This document shows positions 3,895 to 20,057 of a stretch of 20,057 nt of DNA, one piece after another. The first letter of the stretch is position 1. Every line of letters starts with the position of its first letter. Both the position numbers and the translations under genes were made by a program. Source of the DNA: a virus; IMG/VR virus record IMGVR_UViG_3300008459_005182, positions 1-20,057 of that record; one strand, written 5' to 3'. Below the pieces are notes generated by a model. The model saw only the letters and a list, made by a program, of their open reading frames with translations. It made no database searches and was not told the DNA's origin.

Positions 3895-3920
3895 ATAATC
3901 CTTGTTTATCAATGTTTTAA

Positions 3921-6523: not shown

Positions 6524-6547
6524 AGTAGATCCTTTGTAAGAATCTCT

Positions 6548-7222: not shown

Positions 7223-7239
7223 TATATACTAAATTTTAA

Positions 7240-7626: not shown

Positions 7627-8066
7627 ATGTACTCCACTCTTGTAATTGCTCTCCACGAAACGGAACTTTCATCCCAGTAATAATTATTATCAACAAGAGT
7701 TGTGTGTGAAGATCCTAGAGGGTGATCCACAGGAGGCCTCCAACTCATATCATCCAAATTACCAACCCATGATTCATATGGTTTGCGAGCCTGGTGTTCT
7801 ATAGATTTCAATTCTAAAAATTCCTCTTCTGTCAAAACACAAATAACTCCAGGTAAATAAATATTTGAATCCTCATCACAAGTACCGTAATAACGGGGAG
7901 CAGAAGAGTACGTACCATCAGGCAAACAATCTATTGGCCACTCAGATGAATTAGACCATAAAAAATTAAAATTATTAACTTTGGGAAAAGATGGCCCAGT
8001 CCTCATTCGTTGTTGAGTACAAATGACCCCAGTTTCAGCATCTACGTGAGTTAAACAAACATACAT
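7623..8066 (-). CDS. Tail-associated phage protein of unknown function (147 aa)
   Basis: 147 residues. The C-terminal half reads like a module often seen in marine phage tail-region proteins: PYESWVGNLDDMSWRPPVDHP, then YYWDESSVSW. Here an SW plus W-x-PP-P-P segment is followed by a YxWDE--SW segment. The N-terminal half has ETGVICTQQ and a TEEEF helix. It directly follows the probable adhesin gene (23 bases) and overlaps the cupin gene by 4 bases. A role as a tail fibre accessory or assembly protein is inferred from position and this module. No Shine-Dalgarno stronger than AAAAG is visible. Confidence 0.65.
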   Translation of the reverse strand: MYVCLTHVDAETGVICTQQRMRTGPSFPKVNNFNFLWSNSSEWPIDCLPDGTYSSAPRYYGTCDEDSNIYLPGVICVLTEEEFLELKSIEHQARKPYESWVGNLDDMSWRPPVDHPLGSSHTTLVDNNYYWDESSVSWRAITRVEYI

Positions 8067-8089
8067 TTTTTTTACTTTTAAAAAGATTA

Positions 8090-8920
8090 TTAGGCGGCAA
8101 CTCTACGGACGGCACGTGTGACACGCCCTCCATATGGGCTATTTGCACTATTTTTATATGCAATACCCATGCGTGAGTCGTAAAAATCCTGAGTGTGTGC
8201 CAAATAGGGAGCAACTTCCGTGCTAGTCCACCACACGCCATCAGTGGCTTGAGCAGCACCTCCTTGAAAAATTGCGGCGGAGGTTACAGATGGGTTGGTA
8301 GCAGGGCCTGAGTTATTCGGAGCAAATGTATAATTAGTGTTTATGGGTTGCGGCGATACAGCATAAGGTGTAGCTCCAAAATATGAGTCAGAAGGTTGAT
8401 AAGGATTATTTTGTTGGTTGGTAGGTTTACAATAATAATATATTATACCTGCTTCATGTCTTGCTGGCAAATACCAATCATCATAACCCCCTGTATTGAG
8501 GTTATAAGGTTTAGGAGCAGCTGCATATGCGGGTAAATAAGTGTAGTAACTAACTAATAAATACGTGTTGTATGGCCCATCGATTAATGATGTCGCTCCA
8601 GAATTACCTCCGTAATTAGCATTGAAACCATAACCCAACCATCTACCAACAGCATTATCAGCAAGAATTAAATAATGAGATACAGTTCCATTTCCGTTAA
8701 CACTAATTTTACCAGCGTAATAACCACCCCCAAATGCTTGACCAATAGTTGTTGGAGGTCCTGTTTTACCGTAAAAACTACTAAGGGATATTGCACCTGA
8801 AGCAATTCCAGCGAGTGCTCTTACGGCTGTTGTATTCAACGCTATCGTGGCTGTTCCGGAATTTCCCAACTCAACATTAATGTTGTTCATCGAGATTTGA
8901 CCTGAAGCTTGAAGAGTCAT
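8090..8920 (-). CDS. Tail fibre / receptor-binding protein with Lcl (DUF1566)-like C-terminal domain
   Basis: 276 residues. The N-terminal 52 residues (GQISMNNINVELG, then AVRALAGIASGAISLSSFYGK) form a small module that recurs at the start of aquatic phage tail or structural proteins. A glycine/tyrosine/asparagine-rich middle follows. The C-terminal domain has DDWYLPARHE (around residue 146), WWTSTE (around 230) and RVTRAVRR at the end. This is the order W-LP--E, W-S-T-E, RAVRR of the Lcl C-terminal (DUF1566) domain, a C-type-lectin-like fold related to variable adhesins. The product is probably displayed on the tail and contacts the host. AAAGGA lies eight bases before the ATG. Confidence 0.75.
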   Translation of the reverse strand: MTLQASGQISMNNINVELGNSGTATIALNTTAVRALAGIASGAISLSSFYGKTGPPTTIGQAFGGGYYAGKISVNGNGTVSHYLILADNAVGRWLGYGFNANYGGNSGATSLIDGPYNTYLLVSYYTYLPAYAAAPKPYNLNTGGYDDWYLPARHEAGIIYYYCKPTNQQNNPYQPSDSYFGATPYAVSPQPINTNYTFAPNNSGPATNPSVTSAAIFQGGAAQATDGVWWTSTEVAPYLAHTQDFYDSRMGIAYKNSANSPYGGRVTRAVRRVAA

Positions 8921-8932
8921 TTAAGTGATCCT

Positions 8933-9289
8933 TTATTTTGTTTCTTCTACTCTTGTAAGTAGGTGATTCACTGATCTCTGTACAAGATCTGCAAATACCG
9001 GACCTTGAAGTTTATGATTGCTAATGTTATTTGGGTTGGATTTAATGGTGAATTCAAATTTAAATTTGTCACCTACCAAATTAATTGTTTGCATATTTAA
9101 CATAATTGTAACCCCATCAAACTCTTCTTCTAAAAATTCAAAACCTAGTAAGTTGTTATCTGATGGTGAAAGAATAGCCTTATAAAACTCAACGGGATCC
9201 TTCCACGCATATAGTGGGTTAAGTGTCACATCATATTCAGGGGTAAAATCAAAAGAATTATCATTTAGTGTATAATTATCGTCAACCAT
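8933..9289 (-). CDS. Probable tail/virion protein of unknown function (118 aa)
   Basis: 118 residues, acidic, mostly beta-strand-like by pattern (FKFEFTIKSNP, GVTIMLNM), with no recognised domain. The assignment to the virion is from context: a perfect T4-type late promoter (9311-9318) directly precedes it with AAGGA in a 16-base leader, and the probable adhesin gene follows 12 bases after its stop. The whole 9289-7240 segment is therefore probably one late transcript. It could be a baseplate, fibre-base or neck component. Confidence 0.65.
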   Translation of the reverse strand: MVDDNYTLNDNSFDFTPEYDVTLNPLYAWKDPVEFYKAILSPSDNNLLGFEFLEEEFDGVTIMLNMQTINLVGDKFKFEFTIKSNPNNISNHKLQGPVFADLVQRSVNHLLTRVEETK

Positions 9290-9310
9290 TTTTTTTTCCT
9301 TTACATAATA

Positions 9311-9318
9311 TATTTATA
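9311..9318 (-). promoter_or_regulatory. T4-type late promoter, perfect TATAAATA
   Basis: The minus strand reads TATAAATA, identical to the T4 late consensus. A start about six bases downstream (near 9305) leaves a leader of about 16 bases containing AAGGA before the ATG at 9289. It lies at the very 3' end of phoH, separating early/middle-type genes upstream from the tail genes downstream. Confidence 0.7.
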
Positions 9319-10069
9319 CAGTATCCTCATACCATAATTTAGCTAAAATATAATCTTTAACTAATGAACTGCGAACAATATCATCAGGAGTAAACTCAAT
9401 TCTAGTAAAAGCAGACATATGATATGCAATATCAAAGAATTTTAAGATACCACTCATATCGTTTTTCTTCTTATTTAAATCTGTTTGGCGGTAGTCACCA
9501 CACCATAAGATCTTTGATCTGTAACCTACTCGAGTCATCACAGTATCAATCTCTTCAAATGTTAAGTTCTGCATCTCATCTACTATAATAATGGCATCAT
9601 CGAATGACATTCCTCTAATGAAAGATGTAGAAATAAACTCAATGAACCCTTGCTCTTCAAGTCTATCCCAAGCATCCTTACGATCAAATAGAGTCTCACA
9701 TATCTGTCTATAAGGTTGTTGATAGATTTCCATCTTCTCATGAACATCACCTGGAAGATGTCCAACCTCTCTAGATTGAACAGCAGAACGAACAACAATA
9801 ATCTTTCTAAAAGGATTACTCTTATCCATCACTTCTTCTAATGCTTTGTACAAAGCACAGAATGTTTTACCTGTTCCAGCTACTCCGTGTAATGCTACGA
9901 AGTAGTCTCCTCTTTTATATGCATCGAAGAATAACTTTTGATTGTCTGTTAAAGGATCAAAAGTCTTAAGATCATCGATTCTGAGTTTAAGCGAATTGTT
10001 CACAACTCTGAGTCGTTCTGTATTCGCTGATTCTGCCTCTGTTGATTTCAATGCTGCTTTTCTTGCCAC
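9314..10069 (-). CDS. phoH: PhoH-family P-loop ATPase
   Basis: About 251 residues. Walker A is GVAGTGKT (about residues 62-69), then the PhoH signature VVRSAVQSREVGHLPGD, FIRGMSFDD, Walker B IIIVDE (about 160-165) and LWCGDYRQTD. This is the PhoH family widespread in aquatic phages; suggested roles include phosphate-stress or RNA metabolism, none proven. There is no ATG at the 5' end. A TTG at 10084 has no Shine-Dalgarno, while the GTG at 10069 has AAGGA five bases upstream and gives MARKA, so I use 10069. The preceding gene ends in the same frame just upstream. Confidence 0.9.
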   Translation of the reverse strand: MARKAALKSTEAESANTERLRVVNNSLKLRIDDLKTFDPLTDNQKLFFDAYKRGDYFVALHGVAGTGKTFCALYKALEEVMDKSNPFRKIIVVRSAVQSREVGHLPGDVHEKMEIYQQPYRQICETLFDRKDAWDRLEEQGFIEFISTSFIRGMSFDDAIIIVDEMQNLTFEEIDTVMTRVGYRSKILWCGDYRQTDLNKKKNDMSGILKFFDIAYHMSAFTRIEFTPDDIVRSSLVKDYILAKLWYEDTV

Positions 10070-10087
10070 AGGCTTCCTTAACAAGTT

Positions 10088-10318
10088 TCAAAATGTGTTG
10101 ATAGAGTTTCTCCTACCACTACCTGCTTTGACTTTACGAAGCAAATCTCTAAAGCCATCATCCGGCTTTTTACCAGTAGGACTATAGACCAGGGAGGGAG
10201 CACCCATTATTGACTCAAGATCTGGATTGTCTGATAAGTAACCGTCTTTTGCTCCCATAGACATAAACTTATCAAACACTTCACCAGTTTTGATATTGCG
10301 AAAACTGTAAGTAGGCAA
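10088..10318 (-). CDS. Small conserved phage protein, FmdB-like N-terminus without cysteines (76 aa)
   Basis: 76 residues beginning MPTYSFRNIKTGEVFDKFMS, the same strand pattern as FmdB-type zinc ribbons (MPTYxYxC) but without any cysteine, so it cannot bind zinc in that way. The rest (GAPSLVYSPTGKKPDDGFRDLLRKVK, ending RNSINTF) is typical of a small protein conserved in T4-like aquatic phages. The start is a TTG directly after the stop of the upstream gene (TAATTG), with AAAGG eight bases before it. Conservation of MPTY supports that start. Function unknown. Confidence 0.75.
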   Translation of the reverse strand: MPTYSFRNIKTGEVFDKFMSMGAKDGYLSDNPDLESIMGAPSLVYSPTGKKPDDGFRDLLRKVKAGSGRRNSINTF

Positions 10319-10675
10319 TTACTTTGCCTTTACTGTTCTTACTGCTGGCTTTGCGGATGGCTTAGAGGTACCTTCAGCAGGTACATTACCAGGGAAAGGC
10401 CATCCAGTTTCTTTCTTTACTGGTTCTTTCTTAGCACGAGGCTTGCGAGGAGCTTTAGGTTTAGCTTCTACAATCGCTTCTTCAACCTTTACTGCAACTG
10501 CTTGAACTTCAGGAGCTGGTTCTGCTACAACTGTAACAGTCTCGACCTTTAGTTCAGGAGCAGGTGGAGTGCTCAATGTTTTAGCCATATTGTCAAATGC
10601 TTTCGCACCAGCATCAGCAGGTGCTGAGGATGTTGCTACTGGCTCCATACCTAATAGTTTTTTCAACCATTTCAT
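10319..10675 (-). CDS. Low-complexity Ala/Pro/Lys/Glu-rich phage protein (118 aa)
   Basis: 118 residues. A short amphipathic start (MKWLKKLLGMEP) is followed by a long disordered alanine/proline/valine/glutamate region and a lysine/proline-rich basic part (KPKAPRKPRAKKEPVKK), then a GWPFPGN motif and a basic tail. It is probably intrinsically disordered. The amphipathic start could bind membrane or a protein partner and the basic tracts could bind nucleic acid; both are inferences. AAAGGAG lies six bases before the ATG, one of the best ribosome sites in this part of the window. The short upstream gene ends within that leader. Confidence 0.75.
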   Translation of the reverse strand: MKWLKKLLGMEPVATSSAPADAGAKAFDNMAKTLSTPPAPELKVETVTVVAEPAPEVQAVAVKVEEAIVEAKPKAPRKPRAKKEPVKKETGWPFPGNVPAEGTSKPSAKPAVRTVKAK

Positions 10676-10686
10676 ATCATTCTCCT

Positions 10687-10860
10687 TTATCGATAATCAT
10701 CGTATTCTAAATTTTTAAGATCTTGAAGACTTTTTTTCTTCAATGCATTATCTATATCGCGATACATCTTGCGATCTTGAAAGCTCTGCTTGAGCTTATA
10801 AACGTGATGACTATCAAGTTCGTCATCTTTCTTTTTACGTTTATCCTGTTGCTTATTCAT
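10687..10860 (-). CDS. Small highly charged phage protein (57 aa)
   Basis: 57 residues: MNKQQDKRKKKDDELDSHHV, then helical segments with FQDRKMYRDIDNALKKKS and a LEYDDYR end. Almost a third of the residues are lysine or arginine. It fills the gap between two larger genes: its ATG lies six bases after the stop of the upstream 141-residue gene and its stop lies just before the Shine-Dalgarno of the next gene, so spacing supports a real gene. It was found by manual translation. Function unknown; small basic/acidic mixed helices of this type occur among phage early proteins. Confidence 0.65.
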   Translation of the reverse strand: MNKQQDKRKKKDDELDSHHVYKLKQSFQDRKMYRDIDNALKKKSLQDLKNLEYDDYR

Positions 10861-10866
10861 TTGGGG

Positions 10867-11292
10867 TTATTTCTCCTGTGAAATAAGTCCTGGAAATGCA
10901 GTATTGACTAGCTTGGCAGTAATACCTTTGTAAGGAATCTTTTTATCTTTAGCAGCAAGCATCAGCTTAGCATCTTCTTTGTCAATGCTTTCAATAAAAC
11001 TAATAAACAATTGCTCTCTACGAAGTGATGTAAGGTTATCGTTACCACCTTCTAAGAACAAATACAATCTTCTAGCCTCTTGATATAACATAGCTTGAGT
11101 ATCATCATAAGGACTAGGATTGTAAGGAGGATGACCTTCGGGTAACTTCCACTTAACAGTAGGATCCAAAGCACACTTTAAGATTTGTTGAAGGACAGGA
11201 GTGTTAAGCTCTTGAAGCTTTCTTACCTTCTCATCTGTAGTCTTTTGTTCAGATACAATCTTTAAGATCTCTGATATGCCAAGTTTTCTCAT
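10867..11292 (-). CDS. Conserved T4-like phage protein, DUF6433-like (141 aa)
   Basis: 141 residues. The layout is an N-terminal helix with EILKIVSEQKT, then LQQILKCALDPTVKWKLPEG, EARRLYLFLEGG, REQLFISFIESIDKEDA and AAKDKKIPYKGITAKLVNTAFP. This is the pattern of a protein family conserved in T4-like cyanophages and relatives that I recall as DUF6433. The family name is from memory and the function is unknown. The KWxLPEG and AKDKKxPYKGIT blocks are the strongest matches. It lies among phoH and rnh, in line with a role in DNA metabolism or host takeover rather than structure, by inference. Confidence 0.8.
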   Translation of the reverse strand: MRKLGISEILKIVSEQKTTDEKVRKLQELNTPVLQQILKCALDPTVKWKLPEGHPPYNPSPYDDTQAMLYQEARRLYLFLEGGNDNLTSLRREQLFISFIESIDKEDAKLMLAAKDKKIPYKGITAKLVNTAFPGLISQEK

Positions 11293-11293
11293 A

Positions 11294-11431
11294 TTATTTT
11301 TTATTAATTAAAGGACATTTAACAACGTGGTACACACATCCATTTTCATCAGCACACAAGCTAGGATCTTTTTTGCTATCAACCAACACAGCTTTGAATT
11401 TACACCAAACACATTTCATTTTTTGCTTCAT
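11294..11431 (-). CDS. Very small cysteine-containing phage protein (45 aa)
   Basis: 45 residues with CVWC (7-10), C26, C32 and C39, ending in a lysine-rich tail. The CxxC plus later cysteines suggest a zinc- or iron-binding mini-domain. It sits exactly in the gap between rnh (2 bases upstream) and the 141-residue gene (start codon at 11292, just after its stop). Tight packing without other coding capacity supports it. It could be a zinc finger for nucleic acid or protein binding. The exact role is unknown. Confidence 0.6.
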   Translation of the reverse strand: MKQKMKCVWCKFKAVLVDSKKDPSLCADENGCVYHVVKCPLINKK

Positions 11432-11433
11432 AA

Positions 11434-12294
11434 TTAAAAATCGTTGATACTCTCTATTAATGTTTTGAGCTTGTGCTTAACAAAATAATTAAATAACTTA
11501 TCTCTAGGCTTATCCTGTTGAGAGTTATACTGTTCTATTACTGCTTCGGAAATTGTCTTGGGAGTAAATGTAAGATCAATGAGAGAATTGTTTCTCATAA
11601 AATTAGCTCGGATCTCTGGATCATATGTGGAAGGATCAACTGCAAGGAGCTCAGCCATCTTCTTTGCGGTAAGTGGCTTTTGTCTAATGCCTTCGATGAG
11701 GCAGTTGTCAGGCGACAAAACGTTTGGAATACCATCCCCACGATCGCCTTTAAGGACTAACTCTTTCAAGAACTGTGCAGGATCTTTGCAAGTGATGTTC
11801 TTTTTGTGAATAGGATCATACTGGCTAACATTTACATACGACTGCAACTGAACAAAGTCCTTATCGCCAGACAAAATAAGAATCTTTTCAGCTGATGAAC
11901 TATTTAGCGGTACACCAAATTCTGCAACAAGGCTACCAATCACATCATCTGCCTCAGCTCCATCAACCTGAATGATAGGATAAGGAAAGTAATCTTTCAG
12001 ATCTTGTTTGATTGTATTAAGGGTGTTGAATAGATTTGTCCAATCGATCTCAGACTTCTCTCTATCCTTCTTACGGTTACCTTTGTAAGCTGGAAACTGT
12101 TCACGTCTCCAATACTTCTTATCATCACAAGCAATGACAAGCTGACCATAACTTTTATATTTGGTCTTTAGGTTACGGATAGAGTTAAGAACCATGTGGC
12201 GAACAAGGTTCTCTTCAATCTCTACATTGGTATGATTACCAAGTTGCTGAAGAACATTGGAAATCATTATTTGGTTTAGGTCTAGTATAATCAT
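11434..12294 (-). CDS. rnh: T4 RNase H-like 5'-3' exonuclease/flap nuclease
   Basis: 286 residues from the ATG at 12294; a TTG at 12318 would add 8 residues and overlap the upstream gene more. It aligns by eye along the full length with T4 RNase H (Rnh, 305 aa): ILDLNQI (D5), VRHMVLNSIR, WRREQFPAYKGNR, VDGAEADDVIG (acidic cluster), ILSGDKDFVQL, and KGDRGDGIPNV with the helix-hairpin-helix-like region, ending KTLIESINDF. These are the metal-binding acidic residues of the FEN/RAD2 family. In T4 the enzyme removes RNA primers and flaps behind the fork. No Shine-Dalgarno is visible; coupling to the upstream gene is likely. Confidence 0.9.
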   Translation of the reverse strand: MIILDLNQIMISNVLQQLGNHTNVEIEENLVRHMVLNSIRNLKTKYKSYGQLVIACDDKKYWRREQFPAYKGNRKKDREKSEIDWTNLFNTLNTIKQDLKDYFPYPIIQVDGAEADDVIGSLVAEFGVPLNSSSAEKILILSGDKDFVQLQSYVNVSQYDPIHKKNITCKDPAQFLKELVLKGDRGDGIPNVLSPDNCLIEGIRQKPLTAKKMAELLAVDPSTYDPEIRANFMRNNSLIDLTFTPKTISEAVIEQYNSQQDKPRDKLFNYFVKHKLKTLIESINDF

Positions 12295-12310
12295 AACATA
12301 TTGTAGCACA

Positions 12311-12598
12311 CTACACAATTTTAATCAACTGATCAGTAACGTCCTGTAGTTCATGTTTAATGTTCATTGTACGGAATACACCACTCTTAATAGCTTCTAA
12401 CACCATCCCAATGTCTTTCTCATCCTGGATGTAAAAGTTAAACGATCCTAGATGGTTTAGAAGGTCTGGTACAACTTCATCAAGAGCTGTCTCCACTGCT
12501 TCTCTTTGGTTCTCATCTATTTTAGATATAACTTCTTCTAGAGACTGAGGAGCAGTCTCTAGTTTATCTTTAGGAAAGAAAAGGACTTTATTGCTCAT
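12311..12598 (-). CDS. Conserved small phage protein (95 aa)
   Basis: 95 residues, acidic and helical. Landmarks are SLEEVISKIDENQ, LDEVVPDLLNHLGS, DEKDIGMVLEAIKSGVFRTMNIKHELQ. The last block (M/VLEAI-S-V-R---I-H-LQ) resembles small hypothetical proteins of T4-like cyanophages, again with unknown function. Its start overlaps the gmhA stop by 4 bases (ATGA), and its stop lies 16 bases before the rnh ATG, so it links the sugar operon to rnh in one probable transcript. No motif points to an enzymatic role. Confidence 0.75.
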   Translation of the reverse strand: MSNKVLFFPKDKLETAPQSLEEVISKIDENQREAVETALDEVVPDLLNHLGSFNFYIQDEKDIGMVLEAIKSGVFRTMNIKHELQDVTDQLIKIV

Positions 12599-13197
12599 AA
12601 CTTCAATTCATGTTTATCGTCTCTAGCAAGGAAATGCTTAGTACGAATAGATTGAGCAATAGAATGCATGAGGATCTGATGACAATCCTCAACAATACCG
12701 TAGTTATGTGAGGGAACGTATACAACATAATCAGCCATCTCATAGTCCATTACATAACCACCATCAAACCCAACAAACGCCATTGTCTCCAAACCCTTTT
12801 GACTAGCAGTACGGAGACCTTTAACAATGTTCTTGGAGTTACCACTAGCAGAGATAGCAATTGCTAATCCACGATTGTTGGGGAATGCTTCAATCTGTTT
12901 AGAGAAGATTTCATCATAACTGTAATCGTTTGCAATGGCTGTAATCAAAGCCATGTTAGAAGCTAAGCTGATAATGTTTGAATGCAAAGGAGTATCGTGC
13001 CTTACTCCTTTAGTATGGTCACACGAGAAGTGTTCGGACAAGGCAGCTGAACCTCCATTACCGAACACATAGATTGGTGCCTGCTCTTTGGCATACATTT
13101 CAATTACTCGATGAGCTTGACTGATACTAGCTCTATCAATCTTACTCAATGCTTCTGTTACACCTGATGCATACACATCAAAGAAAGCCGAACTCAT
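12595..13197 (-). CDS. gmhA: Sedoheptulose-7-phosphate isomerase (GmhA-like SIS protein)
   Basis: 200 residues, the usual length for GmhA. The SIS fold is shown by IYVFGNGGSAALSEHFSCD (around residue 42) and LAIAISASGNSKNIVKGL (around 111), and the C-terminal EDCHQILMHSIAQSI helix carries the E and H expected in the active site. GmhA converts sedoheptulose 7-phosphate to D-glycero-D-manno-heptose 7-phosphate. The gene overlaps hddA upstream by 4 bases. Together with hddA this gives the first two steps of bacterial heptose-nucleotide synthesis from a host pentose-phosphate intermediate. Confidence 0.85.
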   Translation of the reverse strand: MSSAFFDVYASGVTEALSKIDRASISQAHRVIEMYAKEQAPIYVFGNGGSAALSEHFSCDHTKGVRHDTPLHSNIISLASNMALITAIANDYSYDEIFSKQIEAFPNNRGLAIAISASGNSKNIVKGLRTASQKGLETMAFVGFDGGYVMDYEMADYVVYVPSHNYGIVEDCHQILMHSIAQSIRTKHFLARDDKHELKL

Positions 13198-14168
13198 TTA
13201 TTCATCTCCACAACACTACCTTGATTGGTAAAATTAAAATCAAATATATCATAGTTACTTAGGGCTTTGATAACCCTAGCATGGCTCTTAGGAGGAACAT
13301 ACATTAACAAGTAACCTCCACCACCAGCACCCAAAATCTTACCACCCAAAGCACCTGCTTTCATTGCACTACTATACATTTCATCTATTGTAGGGTTAGA
13401 AATGTTATCAGACAACCTCTTTTTGATATCCCATGATTCACCCAACAGCGAACCAAAGTCGTCTAGTTGTCCTTTGAGGAGGAACTTAAACGCGTCCTCC
13501 GCCATAGCAACCATATTAGCAGTATTATCCACGTTAACCACATTTTTAAGTCCCTTCACTTGCTTTTCTAAAACAGATGAGGCTTGTCTCGTGATCCCTG
13601 TATTAAAACAAATAAGATTATCATTCAAACGAGAGGCTGCGTCTGTTGTTATATTGACTGGAATAACAGCCACATCGTCACCTTCAAACGTAATAGCATT
13701 GAATCCACCGAATGCTGCTGCGTATTGATCTTGTTTACCAATTGGTTGCTTGCACTTATCTATCTCGATGTGGCAAGCTAGCTCAGCTAGTTCATAATTG
13801 TTGTATTGAGTTCTGGACATCTCAAGGATTGCCTTTAACAAACCAACAGTGAAGGTAGAAGACGATCCTAGTCCTGTTCCTTTTGTAGGGATGTCAGAGA
13901 ATGAAGCAATCTCTATGTGATTGTTAATACCGTAGTATTGCAATACTTCTCTTACACGATCATGCTTAAGCTGAGATGAATAATCAACAATTTCAATCTC
14001 CGAGTACATAACTTTTGTATGTGGTGTACGTGTTCCATTAGCAGCAATGTAGATTGGTCTATCAATAGTTGTTGATATAACCAATCCTCGATTGTTCTTA
14101 TAAAACTGAGGAATGTCACTTCCTCCTCCAAAGAAGCTAACCCTCAGAGGTGTCTTTGTAATAATCAT
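13194..14168 (-). CDS. hddA: GHMP kinase, D-glycero-alpha-D-manno-heptose-7-phosphate kinase (HddA-like)
   Basis: 324 residues. It begins TKTPLRVSFFGGGSDIPQFY, a close fit to HddA-type kinases, with the GHMP ATP loop GTGLGSSSTFTVGLL near residue 97, GKQDQYAAAFGG near 143, and a C-terminal GGKILGAGGGGYLL motif near 272. The predicted reaction is phosphorylation of heptose 7-phosphate at C1, giving the 1,7-bisphosphate. ATGA overlaps join it to the glycosyltransferase upstream and gmhA downstream. A fucokinase-like or other sugar kinase role is the main alternative, but the gmhA neighbour supports heptose. Confidence 0.85.
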   Translation of the reverse strand: MIITKTPLRVSFFGGGSDIPQFYKNNRGLVISTTIDRPIYIAANGTRTPHTKVMYSEIEIVDYSSQLKHDRVREVLQYYGINNHIEIASFSDIPTKGTGLGSSSTFTVGLLKAILEMSRTQYNNYELAELACHIEIDKCKQPIGKQDQYAAAFGGFNAITFEGDDVAVIPVNITTDAASRLNDNLICFNTGITRQASSVLEKQVKGLKNVVNVDNTANMVAMAEDAFKFLLKGQLDDFGSLLGESWDIKKRLSDNISNPTIDEMYSSAMKAGALGGKILGAGGGGYLLMYVPPKSHARVIKALSNYDIFDFNFTNQGSVVEMNK

Positions 14169-15160
14169 TTTACTTTATAGTGAAACATCGGACCATCATC
14201 TTTAGGAGGCTTGCGATTCTCTTCAGGATAACGAGCTTTCAACGAGTTTAACACATCTTCCCATTGACCAGAGATCTTACTCCAGTTGTATCTGCTATCA
14301 GCATACATCTTAACAAACTTTAAGTAGTTCTGCATATCATCGTTGTTAACAACTTCAATGGCATGATCCAAAGCATGGTAGAACTTATTGACGTGCACTT
14401 GAGGATCTTGATCCCATTGGTATTGGAATGTCAATCCACCAGCAGTATCAGACAAACCAGCTAGGTTAGGATGAACACACATCAGTCCAGCACTCATTGC
14501 CTCAATAACGCTGCGACTGTTGCACTCAGACCAAATAGAAGGATAAGCAAGGATGTGGCTTTTCTGTAAATGACTACGTACAGTGTCATTATCAGCGAAT
14601 CCATGATAAGTGACTTTCGGATGGTTTTTAAGTTTTTCAAACAAGCTAGCATATCGCTTATCAGCTTCATCCCAACCGTAAATTGCAAAACTAGAAAAAA
14701 CATCAAGGTGGATGTTGTCATACTTTTCACATAGCTTCTCAAAAACAGGATATAACAGTTCCAACCCACGTTGCGGGGTTGATGTATAGATCAACCGAAT
14801 TTCTTCCTTAGACTTAGGAATAAGCGGGATAGGATCGATTGGAGTCTCGATCACAACACACTTATCATCTTGAGGAATACCTAACTTGGTGATGTACTGA
14901 TTGTATTGCCAATGGCCACAGAATACTAATTTGTGGAAACGGTCACGACTAGACTCATCCTTCAAGTGACTAGTTTCTGGATCTTCTGGTAAGTCGTGTA
15001 ACCAGTAAACACGAATCTTATCTTCTTCGATCTTACGAACACGTGAGCAGATCACCTGAAAGTCATCAGCTAGTCCTTCCGGTAGACGTTCTGCCAGTCC
15101 ACGCTTAACCATTTCAGTCCCACCTTTGGACTTAATCGAAATTTCATTCTCTTCAAACAT
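14165..15160 (-). CDS. Glycosyltransferase, GT4-like (GT-B fold)
   Basis: 331 residues. An N-terminal acceptor-domain segment begins SIKSKGGTEMV. The C-terminal nucleotide-sugar domain starts near residue 120 (IRLIYTSTPQRGLELL) and contains YHGFADNDTVRSHLQKSHILAYPSIWSECNSRSVIEAMSAG in pieces: the WSE and E--S-GL elements are the E-x7-E donor-binding motif of GT4 enzymes. No membrane segment, so cytoplasmic. It probably transfers the sugar made by the surrounding operon. The acceptor could be host LPS, virion protein or phage DNA. It overlaps galE by 8 bases and hddA by 4. Confidence 0.8.
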   Translation of the reverse strand: MFEENEISIKSKGGTEMVKRGLAERLPEGLADDFQVICSRVRKIEEDKIRVYWLHDLPEDPETSHLKDESSRDRFHKLVFCGHWQYNQYITKLGIPQDDKCVVIETPIDPIPLIPKSKEEIRLIYTSTPQRGLELLYPVFEKLCEKYDNIHLDVFSSFAIYGWDEADKRYASLFEKLKNHPKVTYHGFADNDTVRSHLQKSHILAYPSIWSECNSRSVIEAMSAGLMCVHPNLAGLSDTAGGLTFQYQWDQDPQVHVNKFYHALDHAIEVVNNDDMQNYLKFVKMYADSRYNWSKISGQWEDVLNSLKARYPEENRKPPKDDGPMFHYKVK

Positions 15161-16088
15161 TTAACTTCCTTGCTTCAATAGCATCATTAATCATATCTTC
15201 AATCAGATGGTGTTGGTATACGAATCCTGTATCTTCCCTGAACTTATCAGGATTAGCAACAAGATAAGCTGGATCGCCTTGACGCTTATCAACAAAGTCA
15301 TACTGACGATGTCCAGTTACATGATAGTACTTCTCAACCATCTCCAATACTGATGTACCAACTCCCAATCCTAGATTGTAAGGACGGTATCCTGGTTGTT
15401 TAATTGATTCGTAAGCATGAATCATTGCACGGCAAATGTCAACAACGTGGACATAATCTCTAACACAGGTACCATCCGGTGTATCGTACAGTTCACCATA
15501 GATCTTGAAGTTGACTTTATCTTTATGAGCCTGGATCAGTCTGCTGATTATATGAGGAGTGTTATCTTGAATTCCAACATCCCCATAGCTTCCTGCTACA
15601 TTGAAGAACCGAAAACACGTTATAGGCGTGTTAAACACGTTACAATACGCTTCAATCACCTGCTCACTCATCCACTTACTGAGTCCGTAGTTGTTAGGTG
15701 AGTCTTTGTGGAAGTCTTCTTTAATCGGAGTCTTATTGTAGTTAGGAGCATAGACAGCAGCGCTGCTTGCATAGACAACCCTAGGCATCTTATGACCTTG
15801 TCCTAATTTTACTAACATCTTGGAAGTATTACCAACATTGTTGACAAAGTAACTCATTGGATCATAAGCACTAGGACCCAGAAGACTATTAGCTGCTAAG
15901 TGAAAGATGCCATCTACTTCATGAGGAGTATATTGTGAGAAACATATGCTAAGGTCTTCATCAGCATATTCAGACTTTTTGCTGTAATCAGTGTCCATAC
16001 CAATGACATAGTATCCTTGTTCTCTTAACATCTTACAGAGAGCTGATCCAATGTAACCTCGATGACCAGTAACTAAAATCTTTTTCAT
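15153..16088 (-). CDS. galE: NAD-dependent UDP-glucose 4-epimerase-like enzyme (GalE)
   Basis: 311 residues. A short-chain dehydrogenase fold is shown by TGHRGYIG (Rossmann glycine loop, residues 7-14), YASSAAVYAP (catalytic Ser region near 106-115), YGLSK (Tyr/Lys pair near 133-137), RFFNVAG and the GalE-like C-terminal blocks RDYVHVVDI and KRQGDPAYLVA. It is most like UDP-hexose 4-epimerases, a little shorter than the usual 330-340 residues. In this operon it could instead act on a nucleotide-heptose. The start overlaps the nucleotidyltransferase stop (ATGA) and its stop region overlaps the glycosyltransferase start. Confidence 0.85.
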   Translation of the reverse strand: MKKILVTGHRGYIGSALCKMLREQGYYVIGMDTDYSKKSEYADEDLSICFSQYTPHEVDGIFHLAANSLLGPSAYDPMSYFVNNVGNTSKMLVKLGQGHKMPRVVYASSAAVYAPNYNKTPIKEDFHKDSPNNYGLSKWMSEQVIEAYCNVFNTPITCFRFFNVAGSYGDVGIQDNTPHIISRLIQAHKDKVNFKIYGELYDTPDGTCVRDYVHVVDICRAMIHAYESIKQPGYRPYNLGLGVGTSVLEMVEKYYHVTGHRQYDFVDKRQGDPAYLVANPDKFREDTGFVYQHHLIEDMINDAIEARKLNV

Positions 16089-16612
16089 TTTTTAGTGTAT
16101 CCTAAGTCAATAGCTGATGTACCATTGAGACCATTATAAAATGCTGAAGGATGCAATGGAAGATCAGAAATGTTAATTGATCCTGTTTTAGGTTTACTGT
16201 TTTCAATAGTGGATGCGATCACTCTACTTCTCAAATCTGAAGTGCTGAAGCTGTGCATCCGAGAGTTAAAAACAATGGGGTGGACATCAAGATGTCTACC
16301 AGTAAAGTCTTTATCTTTGTGATCCTCACCAACAAACCTAACACTGATTGGAAGTGTCTTTAGAAGGTCCAATAGATCTGCTTCAGTGTTGTATACAATT
16401 ACATCATCAATGTACCTAATTGCATGCAATTGGATTTGACGTTCAACAATAGATTGAACAGGCTTATTCTTTTCGGGACGATCAATTGAAGGATCATTCT
16501 GCAGTCCTACAATTAGATGATCACATTGGTTTTTTACTTCTTCAAACATTAACATATGACCAGCATGACATAGGTCAAATGTACCGCAAGTAAATCCAAT
16601 CTTATATTTCAT
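16085..16612 (-). CDS. Cytidylyltransferase-fold nucleotidyltransferase (TagD/HldE C-domain-like)
   Basis: 175 residues from the ATG at 16612, which has AGGTGAG just upstream; a GTG at 16621 is the alternative. FTCGTFDLCHAGHMLMFEE contains the HxGH nucleotide-binding motif, and HSFSTSDLRSRV near residue 123 is the ISTT-like motif of TagD and of the RfaE/HldE C-terminal domain. VGEDHKDKDFTG matches the TagD region. Such enzymes activate glycerol 3-phosphate with CTP, or heptose 1-phosphate with ATP. With gmhA and hddA downstream, heptose 1-phosphate is the likely substrate. The tail after residue 140 is of unknown role. Confidence 0.8.
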   Translation of the reverse strand: MKYKIGFTCGTFDLCHAGHMLMFEEVKNQCDHLIVGLQNDPSIDRPEKNKPVQSIVERQIQLHAIRYIDDVIVYNTEADLLDLLKTLPISVRFVGEDHKDKDFTGRHLDVHPIVFNSRMHSFSTSDLRSRVIASTIENSKPKTGSINISDLPLHPSAFYNGLNGTSAIDLGYTKK

Positions 16613-16613
16613 A

Positions 16614-16886
16614 TCACTCACCTAGACTAAAATTAACATAAATTAACGAGGAAATTTTGAATGATCTCCACTCCCCTTTATCTATATCCCAACAAGGAAC
16701 GATGTCTAGGTTTTGTACTTTAACCTTTTCTGTCTTCCTCTCATAGGGAACTGCAATGTCTTCTCTCAACGTGCAATTCATAGTACGTTCAGTACCATCA
16801 CTTTTAGTAAAAATGACTTGAACCTTATTGGTTTTCAATACACCAATAAGCCAGTCGTGAGTAGTTTTATCTGCTGTCAAAGACAT
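16614..16886 (-). CDS. WYL_2 / SH3-like small phage protein (90 aa)
   Basis: 90 residues from the ATG at 16886, chosen because GGAGAA lies five bases upstream; the frame is open to 16928 but that extension runs through a terminator hairpin. The pattern LKTNKVQVIFTKSDGTERTMNCTL, then VPCWDIDKGEWRSFKISSL, is the WYL_2 (formerly DUF2693) SH3-like fold found in T4-like phages, thought to bind nucleic acid or regulate. It is the first gene of the sugar operon by position: a strong terminator lies upstream, and its stop touches the nucleotidyltransferase start. Confidence 0.8.
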   Translation of the reverse strand: MSLTADKTTHDWLIGVLKTNKVQVIFTKSDGTERTMNCTLREDIAVPYERKTEKVKVQNLDIVPCWDIDKGEWRSFKISSLIYVNFSLGE

Positions 16887-16900
16887 TACGTTTCTCCAAT

Positions 16901-16923
16901 AAAAAAGGGACCGAAGTCCCTTT
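16901..16923 (-). terminator. Rho-independent terminator with UUCG loop
   Basis: The minus strand reads AAAGGGAC, loop TTCG, GTCCCTTT, with the T run continuing to six. The 8-bp stem (including A-T pairs) and the UUCG tetraloop make this the clearest terminator in the window. It lies 22 bases after the 84-residue gene and ends its transcript; the plus-strand reading also has an A/T-rich flank but shorter T run. Confidence 0.9.
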
Positions 16924-16944
16924 ATCATAAGCCGTCCAAATTAA

Positions 16945-17199
16945 TTAGACAAGACCCAAAGAAGCTGCGCGGTAGCCAGCTGCAATGATTGCACGACTTG
17001 GTGTGCCCAATCGGTACTTCTGAGTCACACGACCTTTAGAGTCTGTGCGAGTGTTCAAGTAGATGGACATGCCATCTTCCAAACGAAGTTGAGAAACAAC
17101 TTTAGTTGGTGATGCAATCTTGAACTGTGAACGAATTTGCTTGCTTGTCAACTCAGCACCGTTAGAGAAAGCAGAAGCGAGGCGTTGTTTTTGTGTCAT
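16945..17199 (-). CDS. Small winged-helix/HTH-like phage protein (84 aa)
   Basis: 84 residues from the ATG at 17199, with TGGAG six bases upstream. The N-terminal half (RLASAFSNGAELTSKQIRSQFKIASPTKVVSQLRLEDG in pieces) reads as a helix, then a helix-turn-helix with an ELTSKQI helix and a recognition helix SPTKVVSQLR. It is followed by a beta-wing-like IYLNTRTDSKGRVTQKYRLG. Proteins with KGRV-KYRLGTPS recur in T4-like cyanophages. DNA binding is likely but unproven. The gene has its own promoter (17248-17275) and its own terminator (16901-16923), unlike its neighbours. That layout fits a regulator made on its own schedule. Confidence 0.75.
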   Translation of the reverse strand: MTQKQRLASAFSNGAELTSKQIRSQFKIASPTKVVSQLRLEDGMSIYLNTRTDSKGRVTQKYRLGTPSRAIIAAGYRAASLGLV

Positions 17200-17222
17200 A
17201 ATAGACTCCATAATAAATTAAT

Positions 17223-17240
17223 AAAAAACTGCATGTGCAG
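17223..17240 (-). promoter_or_regulatory. Leader hairpin with T run (possible attenuator or 5' stabiliser)
   Basis: The minus strand reads CTGCA-CA-TGCAG (17240-17229) followed by six T (17228-17223). The arm length is 5 bp with a two-base centre, so a 4-bp stem with a 4-base loop is more realistic. It begins almost at the expected transcription start of the 84-residue gene, so it could be an attenuator, a 5' stabilising hairpin, or an operator. Confidence 0.35.
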
Positions 17241-17247
17241 AACGTCT

Positions 17248-17275
17248 ATTCTACTCATACTTCAATATAAGTCAA
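17248..17275 (-). promoter_or_regulatory. Sigma70-type promoter for the 84-aa HTH-like gene
   Basis: Minus strand TTGACT (17270-17275), 16-base spacer, TAGAAT (17248-17253). Both hexamers match consensus at five of six positions. Expected start near 17241, giving a leader of about 42 bases to the ATG at 17199. Confidence 0.65.
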
Positions 17276-17283
17276 CAGACCTA

Positions 17284-17481
17284 TTAAAAAGAAGTTTTCA
17301 AAAGAGTGTAACCTTCCTTTGAGAACTTCAGAAAACGAGGACCAACTTTGACAACAAAGAACTGCTTGCCGTCAATGAATTCCTCATTCACAATGTCACC
17401 ACGAGTTACTTCGTTAGTGATGTTGTTCTTAAACCTAACATTAGGTTTTACTTTATATGTTGGACGTTGGTTTGTGTACAT
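17284..17481 (-). CDS. Small phage protein of unknown function (65 aa)
   Basis: 65 residues, basic, with alternating strand-like segments (YKVKPNVRFKNN, KQFFVVKVGPRFLKFSKEG) that suggest a small beta-barrel such as an SH3/OB-like fold. No catalytic residues. The ATG lies 13 bases beyond the CCA end of the tRNA-Arg gene, and no Shine-Dalgarno is obvious in between, so it probably depends on processed read-through RNA from the tRNA. It is followed by the promoter of the 84-residue gene. Function not recognised. Confidence 0.65.
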   Translation of the reverse strand: MYTNQRPTYKVKPNVRFKNNITNEVTRGDIVNEEFIDGKQFFVVKVGPRFLKFSKEGYTLLKTSF

Positions 17482-17493
17482 AATATTAATAGT

Positions 17494-17568
17494 TGGTACC
17501 TCTACCTAGAATCGAACTAGGATCACGGGTTTAGAAGACCCGGGCTTTCTCCATTAAGCTACAGAGGT
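17494..17568 (-). tRNA. tRNA-Arg (anticodon UCU), CCA encoded
   Basis: Minus strand, 75 bases including CCA. The acceptor stem pairs ACCTCTG with TAGAGGT. The D-stem pairs GCTT with AAGC. The anticodon stem CGGGT/ACCCG encloses loop CTTCTAA (anticodon TCT, reading AGA/AGG). The T-arm is CCTAG-TTCGATT-CTAGG. Discriminator A is followed by encoded CCA (17496-17494). AGA/AGG-decoding tRNAs commonly compensate for AT-rich phage codon use. Its 5' part overlaps the end of the HNH reading frame. Confidence 0.93.
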
Positions 17569-17970
17569 GATTCTTCCACTATGTACTTTCCTATGGCAAT
17601 TTGCACAAAGAACAGTACACTTATTGATTTCTTTTAGTATTTTATCCCAAGAACCAAAAACAGTCAACGAACTTAACTCACCCTCTTTTGTTGATGGATC
17701 AATATGATGGAGATCAAGACATTCAACGGCATTTTCACCACACAATGAACATCGTTGAGTACTCTTCCATGCTTGATACCTAACCCTCAAATCTTTTTTA
17801 TATGCTCTTACACGATCTTTTTGTTTCTGATTTTCACCAGAATTATAATAGGTCTTATTGTAAGAATTATAACACTCTCTACACTTGGATTGATACTGAC
17901 CTTTTTGTTTATTTCGAAACGAAAAAAGATCTAACGATTTTACTTCTTTGCAAACAGTACATTGTTTCAT
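17554..17970 (-). CDS. HNH homing-type endonuclease next to the tRNA
   Basis: 138 residues. Two zinc-like CxxC pairs are present (C4/C7 and C30/C33), then the HNH core: CSLCG (C74/C77), LDLHHIDP (H88/H89), NKCTVLCANCHRKVH (C122, N124, C125, H126, H130). It is a free-standing phage HNH endonuclease, probably a homing enzyme. The last four codons (TCT GTA GCT TAA) lie in the acceptor and D-arm of the tRNA-Arg, so the tRNA supplies its stop codon. Upstream, a late-type promoter lies inside a hairpin covering the ribosome site (17971-18007). GGGAAG precedes the ATG. Confidence 0.85.
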   Translation of the reverse strand: MKQCTVCKEVKSLDLFSFRNKQKGQYQSKCRECYNSYNKTYYNSGENQKQKDRVRAYKKDLRVRYQAWKSTQRCSLCGENAVECLDLHHIDPSTKEGELSSLTVFGSWDKILKEINKCTVLCANCHRKVHSGRITSVA

Positions 17971-18007
17971 AAACTTCCCTTCTAATATATTTAGAATTTA
18001 GAAGTTT
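17971..18007 (-). promoter_or_regulatory. Ribosome-site-sequestering hairpin upstream of the HNH gene
   Basis: Minus strand: outer arm AAACTTC (18001-18007) pairs with GAAGTTT (17971-17977), which lies directly before the ATG. Inner arm TTCTAA (17991-17996) pairs with TTAGAA (17980-17985) around loop ATATA. The Shine-Dalgarno GAAGGGAAG is locked between and within the right arms. The outer left arm is the last codons of the RuvC-like gene, so only read-through RNA can fold this way. Confidence 0.6.
17988..17995 (-). promoter_or_regulatory. T4-type late promoter match (TCTAAATA) for the HNH gene
   Basis: The minus strand reads TCTAAATA, 7 of 8 matches to TATAAATA and identical to 2099-2106. 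It overlaps the left arm and loop of the hairpin at 17971-18007. A start near 17982 would give a leader of about 12 bases that contains the Shine-Dalgarno but lacks both left arms. Confidence 0.55.
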
Positions 18008-18555
18008 TCAAGGATATTGTTTCCGTATTTGCAAATGTAATAGCTGTCAATAATATCTGAACTAGGATTCCATTGCTTATCTGTTAAGTTAAGCTCCAAC
18101 TTAGGATTATATCCAGTTTCATTAATGAAGGCAACTTGCATATCTTCTTTGTTCGCGTTTCCTCTTCCGGTTGCGAACTTCTTTATTTGTGTTGGTGCAA
18201 TAGGAGTTACTTCATAATTGGACATCCACATCTTATATTTCAGTACACCACAGTTCTCTGCAATATGGAACACACGTCCAGTAGCTGCAAAGGCATAGTC
18301 CTCGATGTAAACCTTATCAACGTGATGAATGGAGAGACATTTTAACACCCAGTTAGAAATGTTATGATATCTTTGTTCCTGACAGAAGTAAGGCTCCATA
18401 GGTGCACCAACCAAATTGTGGTTGTAGTACTTACCATTTTTCTTTCTATCCGTTAAAAAATAAAAAGTACAATCTTTGTAGTTGAAATTATTACCAGTGT
18501 AGATACAAACAGATGGTGATGATAAGGAAAAATCAATCCCAGCTATCTTCTTCAT
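17998..18555 (-). CDS. RuvC-like Holliday junction resolvase
   Basis: 185 residues with an RNase H-like fold. GIDFS (D8) opens the first strand, VYIEDYAFAATG (E85) the fourth, and SSDIIDSYYI (D167, D170) gives the C-terminal acidic residues, the D-E-D-D pattern of RuvC nucleases. PTQIKKFATGRGNANKEDM is the conserved linking segment, and NANK is RuvC-like. It probably resolves branched phage DNA before packaging, the job done by endonuclease VII in T4. The start overlaps the end of the acidic zinc-ribbon gene by 23 bases. A poly-Glu/Lys-like GAAGAAGA run serves as a purine-rich ribosome site. Confidence 0.85.
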   Translation of the reverse strand: MKKIAGIDFSLSSPSVCIYTGNNFNYKDCTFYFLTDRKKNGKYYNHNLVGAPMEPYFCQEQRYHNISNWVLKCLSIHHVDKVYIEDYAFAATGRVFHIAENCGVLKYKMWMSNYEVTPIAPTQIKKFATGRGNANKEDMQVAFINETGYNPKLELNLTDKQWNPSSDIIDSYYICKYGNNILENF

Positions 18556-18706
18556 CTTCTTCTTCGTCTAGATCTTCTAGATCTAGTTCTGAACCACAAT
18601 AAGGACAGAAGCTGATACTATCATCAGTCTCTCCAACTGGTTCAACAACAAATTCAGCATCACATTCGTAACATACGTGTTCAATACTGTCTTTATGGTC
18701 TAGCAT
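18533..18706 (-). CDS. Small zinc-ribbon protein with acidic tail (57 aa)
   Basis: 57 residues with CYEC (12-15) and CPYCG (34-38), a two-knuckle zinc ribbon, followed by a strongly acidic tail (about 14 Asp/Glu in the last 20 residues). The start is fixed by AGGAGG four bases upstream. The end overlaps the RuvC-like gene by 23 bases. An acidic tail can mimic DNA or bind a basic partner, so a role as partner of the resolvase or of RNA polymerase is possible but speculative. Confidence 0.75.
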   Translation of the reverse strand: MLDHKDSIEHVCYECDAEFVVEPVGETDDSISFCPYCGSELDLEDLDEEEDEEDSWD

Positions 18707-18715
18707 ACAACCTCC

Positions 18716-18952
18716 TTATGCTACTGATAGTAAAGCAGATGCTACTGATACAATCCATCTACTTGCGTTTTCATCGTCAGCTAAATGCTGAGCTGCTTTA
18801 ACACTTGCAATCTCTTTGACAAGATATTCAAACTCCTCACGTGACATTAGTTGGTTATTGTATTGATCAACGATCAACATCATTTCATATGATAAAGTAC
18901 CCAACTTAGTGGGTTCTTGAGCTGCTTCTCTCAAAGCTTCTAAAGCTGTCAT
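18716..18952 (-). CDS. Conserved small helical phage protein (78 aa)
   Basis: 78 residues, alpha-helical: LSYEMMLIVDQYNNQLMSREEFEYLVKEIA, then AAQHLADDENASRWIVSVASALLSV. Similar small proteins with SREE-EYL-KEIA and LADDE-A-RWIV patterns occur in T4-like phages; no role is known. The hydrophobic C-terminal segment is not long enough for a clear membrane helix. ATGA couples it to the lipoprotein gene upstream (18949-18952), and its stop lies nine bases before the zinc-ribbon start codon. Confidence 0.7.
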   Translation of the reverse strand: MTALEALREAAQEPTKLGTLSYEMMLIVDQYNNQLMSREEFEYLVKEIASVKAAQHLADDENASRWIVSVASALLSVA

Positions 18953-19302
18953 TTTCTATCCTTCCATGCATCGACAATAGCGTCGATACGTTTTTGTTGT
19001 ACATTTAGCAATGATTTGCAAAATACAGGATTAGTAGAAGAGTATGCCTTGGTCATAGCTTCGTGTAAACCTTTAATGTTTTCTGCTTGAGGATCATTCC
19101 GGTATGTAGTATAAACTTTAAGGTGAAGAATAGTGTCTTGAATCTCTTTCCATCCGTATGCTTTTTCATCACAAGAGATCTGGCCACTAAGAATTTTTAG
19201 ATCTACAAGGTTACCAAATAGTACTGAGTCGTGAGGACGAGGCATTACAAATGTCATGCAACCCGAAAGAAGTATAACAGGTAGTAATAGTAGTTTTTTC
19301 AT
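18949..19302 (-). CDS. Phage-encoded lipoprotein (117 aa)
   Basis: 117 residues from the ATG at 19302, chosen because it gives a clean lipoprotein signal: MKKLLLLPVILLSGC, with LLSGC as lipobox and C15 as the lipidated residue; the frame is open to 19338. The mature part is helical with a DLKILSGQISCDE segment, TTYRNDPQAENIKGL, and a second cysteine pair (C44 and C95 by count) that could form a disulfide. Export to the host envelope is predicted. A spanin-like lysis role or superinfection exclusion are possibilities; no spanin partner is visible. It starts four bases after the oxygenase stop. Confidence 0.8.
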   Translation of the reverse strand: MKKLLLLPVILLSGCMTFVMPRPHDSVLFGNLVDLKILSGQISCDEKAYGWKEIQDTILHLKVYTTYRNDPQAENIKGLHEAMTKAYSSTNPVFCKSLLNVQQKRIDAIVDAWKDRK

Positions 19303-19306
19303 AATA

Positions 19307-19846
19307 TTAAACACTTTCTTTAAAAATACTAAAGCCAAAACACCATAAAATTCTAGGAACAGAGCCTTTGATTACATCAACTCTATGCTCTAATTCAGAA
19401 ACAGGATACATTAAGAGATCAGAAGGATTAGTTTCATATGGTACATCATCAATATATGTAACGCCCCCTTTGAGTGATTTTTGAGTTATTATATTACAGT
19501 GTAAAGTATAAGAACCGGGAAACCAAATAGGATCTTTATGTGAAAATATATCGCCACCATTGAAACCTATGCCGTTAACGATACCATCCTTATACCCTGG
19601 CTGATCAATTTTAATAATAGAGTGATGTGTTTTCAAATATTCCAATATCCTTTTTTTTATTTGGTAGGATACTTCAGGATAATCAAAAGCATCATCTTTT
19701 GAAAATCTGGTGCTTAGTCTTGTATTAATAATTCCCATACTTACATTAGAAAAAAAGCTTTTTTTATAATTGTTGTTTGTCCAATCATTAAGCTCTTGAA
19801 TTTCTTGATCACTAATAAAATTTTTTACAATTTGAGGTTTTATCAT
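19307..19846 (-). CDS. 2OG-Fe(II) oxygenase-like protein (third in window)
   Basis: 179 residues. Iron site: FSHKDPIW (H103, D105) and ELEHRVD (H154). The 2-oxoglutarate arginine is R165 in PRILWCFGFS. GGVTYIDD lies between. The H-x-D...H...R order is canonical for the prolyl-4-hydroxylase-like oxygenase superfamily, and this copy is the most complete of the three. Its substrate is unknown. It is preceded by the end of nrdB (10 bases) and followed by the lipoprotein gene. No obvious Shine-Dalgarno stands before the ATG, suggesting coupling to nrdB. Confidence 0.8.
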   Translation of the reverse strand: MIKPQIVKNFISDQEIQELNDWTNNNYKKSFFSNVSMGIINTRLSTRFSKDDAFDYPEVSYQIKKRILEYLKTHHSIIKIDQPGYKDGIVNGIGFNGGDIFSHKDPIWFPGSYTLHCNIITQKSLKGGVTYIDDVPYETNPSDLLMYPVSELEHRVDVIKGSVPRILWCFGFSIFKESV

Positions 19847-19855
19847 AAAAATATG

Positions 19856-20057
19856 TTAAGCTGCTTTTGCCCAAACATCATCCCATGTACCAGAGTGCGC
19901 ACCCTTAGCATAGTCTGTTGCTCGGTTTTCAAAAAAGTTAGTATGTGTAGGAGCATTTATCATTTCCTCAACCCATGGAAGAGGATTCTTCTTGACCTTC
20001 ATAATTCCCTTAAGACCAAGACTAATAAGGCGACGATCAGTAATATAGCGGATGTAA
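19856..20057 (-). CDS. nrdB: Ribonucleotide reductase class I beta subunit, C-terminal end (partial)
   Basis: The last 66 codons are present; the 5' part lies beyond the window. YIRYITDRRLISLGLKGI, KKNPLPWVEEMI and TNFFENRATDYAK are the conserved C-terminal blocks of class Ia R2 subunits as in T4-like phages. The protein ends WDDVWAKAA. R2 carries the diiron-tyrosyl radical cofactor used by NrdA to make deoxyribonucleotides; the metal-ligand helices lie outside the window. The neighbouring oxygenase gene follows 10 bases after the stop. Confidence 0.92.
   Translation of the reverse strand, partial: YIRYITDRRLISLGLKGIMKVKKNPLPWVEEMINAPTHTNFFENRATDYAKGAHSGTWDDVWAKAA

Follow-up and report, generated by a model that had tools for sequence, protein, structure and literature searches.

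What controls a nuclease gene whose ribosome site lies within a hairpin, when a promoter-like motif occupies the same hairpin and a tRNA gene overlaps the end of the gene? The question is raised by one locus on the minus strand of the window, the whole 20,057-nt (20-kb) virus record IMGVR_UViG_3300008459_005182, whose bases 1207-20057 match a stretch of a 42-kb contig (G001) at 100% identity. The gene order on this strand is a RuvC-like resolvase gene (17998..18555), an HNH endonuclease gene (17554..17970) and a tRNA-Arg gene with the anticodon UCU (17494..17568), which shares 15 nt with the 3′ end of the HNH gene. A predicted hairpin of two nested stems (17968..18007) hides the ribosome site and ends at the HNH start codon. 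The region is read here, with moderate confidence, as the control element at the 5′ side of a free-standing HNH homing cassette, whose probable targets are tRNA-Arg(UCU) genes; it would act as a late switch and, by a weaker argument, may carry an operator.

The HNH protein (138 aa) has a CxxC...CxxC N-terminus and an HNH/CxxCH signature at the C-terminus, from which catalysis is predicted, and it matches phrog_2255 (E 1.6e-32). By name, its PHROG matches belong to HNH or endonuclease VII-like families or to families without a name, and none is GIY-YIG. A Pfam search gave no match at E 0.001, nor did a comparison of the structure model with PDB folds at the same threshold; the closest solved structure by profile is Hpy99I (E 0.0072). 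With the window region as query, no match was found in the DNA of named phages. The Rfam gathering scan of the region detected the tRNA only and no group I intron, and the HNH gene is free-standing between the RuvC-like gene and the tRNA. Elsewhere in the window, a NUMOD3 (homing-type) gene is present on the opposite strand (2101-2868, plus); it adjoins a small gene with TCTAAATA upstream, kept in the relative G002.

The HNH gene is present or absent at this one site between close relatives. Three loci (L003, L004 and L005) are 81-98% alike to the window in long aligned flanks, yet have no HNH gene, and their RuvC-like frame runs into a tRNA-Arg(UCU) gene. The alignment to them breaks at window 18016 and 17485, and therefore 530 bp with the hairpin, HNH gene and tRNA (17486..18015) stand for ~82 bp with the resident tRNA, so that the hairpin is part of the inserted segment. 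The alignment places the cassette where relatives carry another tRNA-Arg(UCU); 50-51 of 69-70 aligned bases are common to the two tRNAs. At 2808-2825 of L003 and 3532-3549 of L005, the RuvC-like gene terminates within the tRNA-Arg gene, and in cyanophage S-RSM4 (L191, 894-903) cepT and tRNA-Asp have 10 nt in common. Stop codons borrowed by genes from tRNA positions 8-10 may be common.

Homologues of the HNH gene were drawn from lists of related loci with at most 80 entries each. A scoring rule (SD, ATG, CxxC) assigned their start codons, which are uncurated; the upstream set holds 141 loci with at least 45 nt upstream, and the tRNA-neighbour set 138 unique loci of 167. Among these 138 listed homologues, a tRNA starts within 60 nt of the HNH stop in 47 and is overlapped by the HNH gene in 37. 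The overlap is exactly 10 nt in 13, where, in our reading, the HNH stop codon would form tRNA positions 8-10. The HNH phylogeny agrees with tRNA identity over 43 rows (p 0.0005; rows below 95 aa, L226 and L029 left out). At 70% identity (37 rows) the p values are 0.045 for the amino acid and 0.062 for the anticodon, and at 60% (36 rows) 0.066 and 0.11, so that deep specificity between nuclease and tRNA is weak.

The hairpin itself is largely as described in the first-pass annotation. The 40 nt from 18007 to 17968 fold at -10.2 kcal/mol (z -3.67; 0/200 shuffles as good), and the 61-nt minus-strand RNA from 18020 to 17960, the stretch proposed for folding in that annotation, folds at -10.5 kcal/mol (z -2.27; 6/200 shuffles as good). 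The Shine-Dalgarno region AGAAGGGAAG (17974..17983) is enclosed by the stems and paired save for one G. Both of the nested stems that had been claimed are present, the inner with six pairs, while the outer has eight pairs including one U-G and not seven. The outer left arm (18007-18000) had been correctly assigned to the end of the RuvC-like gene, covering its last codons and the first base of the stop codon. The late-promoter match TCTAAATA (17988..17995), which had been placed in the left arm, lies inside the hairpin and spans the inner left arm and the loop. A fold of this strength is not rare by chance, being equalled by 5% of 6033 coding-strand 40-mers of the same virus; among its gene starts only 2/67 fold as well, presumably including the HNH start. 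By opening energy, the HNH start ranks 4/72 among starts. A reading of the hairpin as a terminator was rejected, as no T run follows it and the terminator scan detected none there.

The T4 late motif spans -13 to -6 according to PMC1524935, and the predicted +1 is therefore 17982. On RNA from this position, the Shine-Dalgarno is predicted to have a mean probability of being unpaired of 0.78, against 0.16 on read-through RNA, and opening the region from -16 to +2 is predicted to cost ~1.1 instead of 12.1 kcal/mol. The start codon is less often unpaired on the late RNA (0.54) than on the long RNA (0.755).

The window shows no TAAATA enrichment (15 found, 22 expected), and the case for a late promoter consequently rests on relatives. 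The T4 late sigma factor gp55 (phrog_234) is encoded in G002 (70 kb, E 6.3e-62) and G003 (160 kb, E 8e-60); it was found in 5/12 records searched and not in the 42-kb contig G001, which holds the window allele. In G002 and G003, ATAAATA is biased to the coding strand (12:0 against the other strand in G002) and to gene starts. The proteins encoded after it have starts that presumably correspond to those of T4 capsid and tail genes. In G001-G003, 45/60 coding-strand occurrences of TAAATA with an A before them lie near starts. A C at position 2 is tolerated, as NCTAAATA lies near starts in 12/20 cases against 10/54 for G or T (p 0.001; p 0.002 without the window site). Late promoters of phage Aeh1 are reported to read CTAAATA (PMC1524935). 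Two late promoters of non-HNH genes in G003 also lie in hairpins: near 21036 (L102), upstream of a gene for 521 aa, the hairpin is a terminator-like stem loop, and near 117599 (L106) the gene that follows encodes 113 aa. Among relatives of the DSL-LC02 HNH gene (L217-L222), the inverted repeat is kept and TATATAAT-like letters replace TATAAATA, as if the promoter type had changed.

Alternatively, a host sigma-70 promoter (TTGAAA-16-TATATT, 18011-17984) could drive the HNH gene constantly. This candidate has 10/12 consensus matches, but matches of this type occur in the region at chance level (6 found, 7.6 expected) and its start, as inferred from spacing, would fall inside the Shine-Dalgarno; constant expression by this route is hardly plausible.

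Other HNH genes bear on the late switch as well. The hairpin pattern was noticed first, then tested on the same data and then on held-out loci. A late motif (TATAAATA, TCTAAATA or GCTAAATA) is enclosed by a hairpin in 17/24 listed loci (12 clusters below 60% identity), with arm sequences that differ between the hairpins. The HNH genes of cyanophages DSL-LC02 and S-SRM01 are among those preceded by the hairpin. In Fisher tests, an enclosing hairpin with shuffle p ≤0.01 is present at 13/25 HNH late-motif sites and 7/69 control late promoters; at p ≤0.05 the counts are 17/25 and 15/69. The remaining 8/25 HNH sites have no enclosing hairpin at p ≤0.05, and L017, L030, L061 and L192 have none at all. 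The first-pass annotation had named loss of the stem in homologues as evidence against the switch. Diverged homologues were found to keep hairpins with different stem sequence, so that this contrary outcome did not arise, although some that bear the motif are without one. In a small homologue set (A2), the alignment has bulges and the pairing register differs between rows.

Predicted release of the start region follows the same pattern. A gain in accessibility of 5 kcal/mol or more is predicted for the late RNA in 14/17 discovery clusters against 6/37 controls (p 5e-6), and in 7/11 held-out clusters against the same controls (p 0.004). The held-out HNH proteins are <55% identical to the discovery set and come from the same collection, with queries built from discovery members. 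The +1 was set by T4 spacing in the release test and one base further on in the first opening-energy test, with like results; L061 was left out of the former and counted as two sites in the latter and in the hairpin-enclosure test. The late RNA of L270 stays closed, its opening energy changing from 12.7 to 10.1.

These homologues also bear on translational coupling, whereby ribosomes ending at the ruvC stop would open the hairpin and HNH would be made whenever ruvC is. The first base of the stop codon (18000-17998) is the last of the outer left arm, the HNH start is 28 nt further on, and because the stop lies within the hairpin's left side, ribosomes finishing ruvC could open the hairpin and weaken HNH repression in the window. 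However, in 9/17 hairpin-bearing homologues the HNH start is preceded, at a distance of 41-63 nt, by the end of a tRNA. Coupling is for this reason excluded as the general explanation and is unlikely overall, although it could still modify the window locus.

The hairpin also contains an inverted repeat, CTTCTAA-12 nt-TTAGAAG (17979..18004), which has the anticodon loop of the cassette tRNA-Arg(UCU) as its left copy and the reverse complement of that loop as its right. The stretch CTTCTAAA (18004-17997) equals positions 32-39 of the tRNA, and TTAGAAG (17985-17979) is the complement of its anticodon loop. Pairing of the two copies over 7 bp would take the place of the nested minimum fold and is weaker alone (-4.9). 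The first-pass annotation had proposed a switch like that of I-TevI, which the predicted release on late RNA and the gp55 and late promoters of relatives support in part; the cassette with its own tRNA and the inverted anticodon-loop copies had been missed.

The anticodon pattern was likewise noticed first, tested on the same data and then on held-out loci. From the matches listed, 46 and then 41 discovery loci were kept (31 clusters), and their both-strand anticodon-loop match score is 133, compared with 40.6 when tRNAs are swapped between loci and 85 for the best of 20000 shuffles. The held-out set, metagenomic contigs filtered from the matches listed (151, 112, 44, 27, 24 and finally 23 clusters), scores 68 against 35.0 (p 0.0005; forward p 5e-5, reverse p 0.0027). 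In a positional profile of 65 loci in 54 clusters, among the matches listed, shared 6-mers peak at tRNA positions 32-38, with forward positions 33-37 matched in 25-28 of 54 loci against ~6-7 expected, and a small second peak lies in the T loop (10/54, 3.3 expected). Both-strand copies are present in 25/54 HNH-tRNA clusters among the matches listed (2.8 expected) and in 3/113 non-HNH genes ending beside a tRNA (Fisher 8e-12), these controls being filtered by cysteine/histidine patterns only. As the sequences show, diverged HNH genes that adjoin tRNAs repeatedly have a palindrome with a late promoter in front of them.

The palindrome is not shown by 29/54 clusters, including L011, L063, L194 and L224. 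T-loop-like arms (GGTTCGAA) precede the HNH genes of L063, L259, L280 and L309 (4/54 clusters, 0.6 expected). At L011 (2900-2955) the arms read TACGAA, like the tRNA-Arg(ACG) group, and the next tRNA is Gln(CUG), a possible change of neighbour. Among named phages, no palindrome signal was detected in the 8 usable of 16 loci (p 0.11, 0.35 and 0.30). Two had been left out for having no downstream tRNA and six for having <25 nt between an upstream tRNA and the HNH start. The power of this test is low because few loci are usable, two have tRNAs 98 and 335 nt away and there are two pairs of near-identical upstream regions. No paper on such a palindrome was found in the literature searched, the coverage of which excludes most subscription journals.

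One possible role of the copies is tRNA sensing at the RNA level, in which the anticodon loop of a free tRNA would pair with the complementary right copy and alter the hairpin. The shared letters do drop sharply outside the 7-nt loop (positions 32-38), as such pairing would have it. Against this, when other alleles of the same tRNA are compared, the copies reach further into their anticodon stem than in shuffles (102 vs 59.5 nt), and remnants of tRNA halves favour an origin in DNA, making sensing very unlikely. In L253, L019 and L318, tRNA 5′ halves with the same anticodon are kept, ending at or just past the loop. Such remnants are clear in few loci, though 12/54 exceed the best of their own 8 shuffles, and the window allele has no clear one. 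Cassettes of this kind are inferred to have inserted at the anticodon loop, one copy being the residue of the old tRNA. Selection is required to explain the mirrored copy, and a putative binding site of the nuclease is suggested as the simplest reason. Stretches that to the eye resemble truncated tRNA 5′ halves precede HNH at L215 (1439-1462) and L224 (1439-1457), with an intact tRNA after it; the remnant score of L224 is just above its own shuffles. A direct repeat of the upstream region and tRNA 5′ half was rejected as a general insertion scar, since mostly none was found.

The same remnants and stem-ward extensions would also suit a palindrome that is purely a DNA operator or a homing-site relic, the RNA hairpin being a by-product with no effect on translation. 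Of 25 palindrome loci, 10 have no late motif; where there is one, it falls within the palindrome (8 loci), on its 3′ side (5) or on its 5′ side only (2). In others (L013, L019 and L188, for example) the palindrome is upstream of the ribosome site. The late promoter of I-TevI is reported to be overlain by a homing-site-like operator (PMC2988022). A ribosome-site switch is not universal, as the motif is 3′ of the palindrome in 5/15 motif-bearing loci and only 5′ in 2/15. However, late-motif loci far exceed ordinary late genes in predicted accessibility gain, in the held-out set too, and hairpins lacking anticodon-loop arms are nonetheless kept (L063, L224 and L194). An operator or relic without translational effect is, on balance, unlikely.

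The late switch would then operate as follows. Early read-through RNA would fold the Shine-Dalgarno into the hairpin; little nuclease would be made, and the overlapping tRNA would stay clear of ribosomes. In the late phase of infection, RNA polymerase with gp55 would start at ~17982, inside the hairpin, and because this start leaves out the left arms, the ribosome site would be free and HNH translated. At the DNA level, the mirrored anticodon-loop copies around the promoter may serve as the nuclease's own putative operator, derived from its homing target, as for I-TevI; this part is suggested by analogy and held less firmly. By a similar analogy, the overlapping tRNA would take the role that the intron has in I-TevI. 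A wider proposal, made tentatively, is that of a family of HNH cassettes which insert at tRNA anticodon loops, donate a replacement tRNA overlapping the nuclease gene and control themselves by a palindrome of two mirrored target-loop copies. The palindrome would be a DNA operator and, where a T4-type promoter lies inside, also a late-only ribosome-site switch that spares the overlapping tRNA early.

If true, the letters just 5′ of such an HNH gene name its target tRNA. Homing targets would be predictable from sequence, which would help explain tRNA gene swaps between phages. Phage tRNAs are reported to be used against host tRNA-cutting defence (PMC13096335), and what moves them therefore matters. 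The logic of I-TevI, in which the target site serves as operator, translation is late-only and an overlapping RNA gene is protected, would extend to a tRNA-linked family.

The closest parallels are the intron-encoded nucleases of T4. According to PMC2988022, I-TevI, I-TevII and I-TevIII each have a ribosome-site hairpin with a late or middle promoter. For I-TevI, the hairpin forms on read-through RNA, a late promoter within it frees the site and, when the hairpin is lost, the intron overlapped by the gene is spliced less well. The window locus resembles I-TevI in its hidden ribosome site, in the late promoter match within the hairpin and in homing-site-like sequence over the promoter. I-TevI and I-TevII are GIY-YIG and I-TevIII is HNH, all encoded in introns, whereas the window HNH gene is free-standing; its inverted repeat of a tRNA anticodon loop and a hairpin whose left side contains the ruvC stop likewise set it apart from the I-Tev systems. 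SegB of T4/T6 is a homing endonuclease in a tRNA region with a ribosome-site hairpin and a predicted late promoter. It is reported to cut at a site with the motif RAWTSGAAC (PMC13096335). In our reading this motif is complementary to the tRNA T-loop, a likeness to the arms found in the small T-loop class. SegB is GIY-YIG, while the window gene is HNH and has the anticodon loop as its main match. The mobE gene of phage Aeh1, whose late promoters share the CTAAATA form, is a free-standing HNH gene with a ribosome-site hairpin; unlike the window gene, it is described within ribonucleotide reductase genes and without an adjoining tRNA. Earlier work has noted HNH genes within phage tRNA clusters (PMC6409571; PMC3185647), and those of Felix O1 and mycobacteriophages (phrog_2255) share the protein family and the tRNA neighbourhood, although both-strand copies are found in 0/8 of the usable named loci, unlike the window. 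The hairpin switch is thus of a known kind, represented by I-TevI, SegB and mobE, while the anticodon-loop palindrome suggests an operator derived from the homing site.
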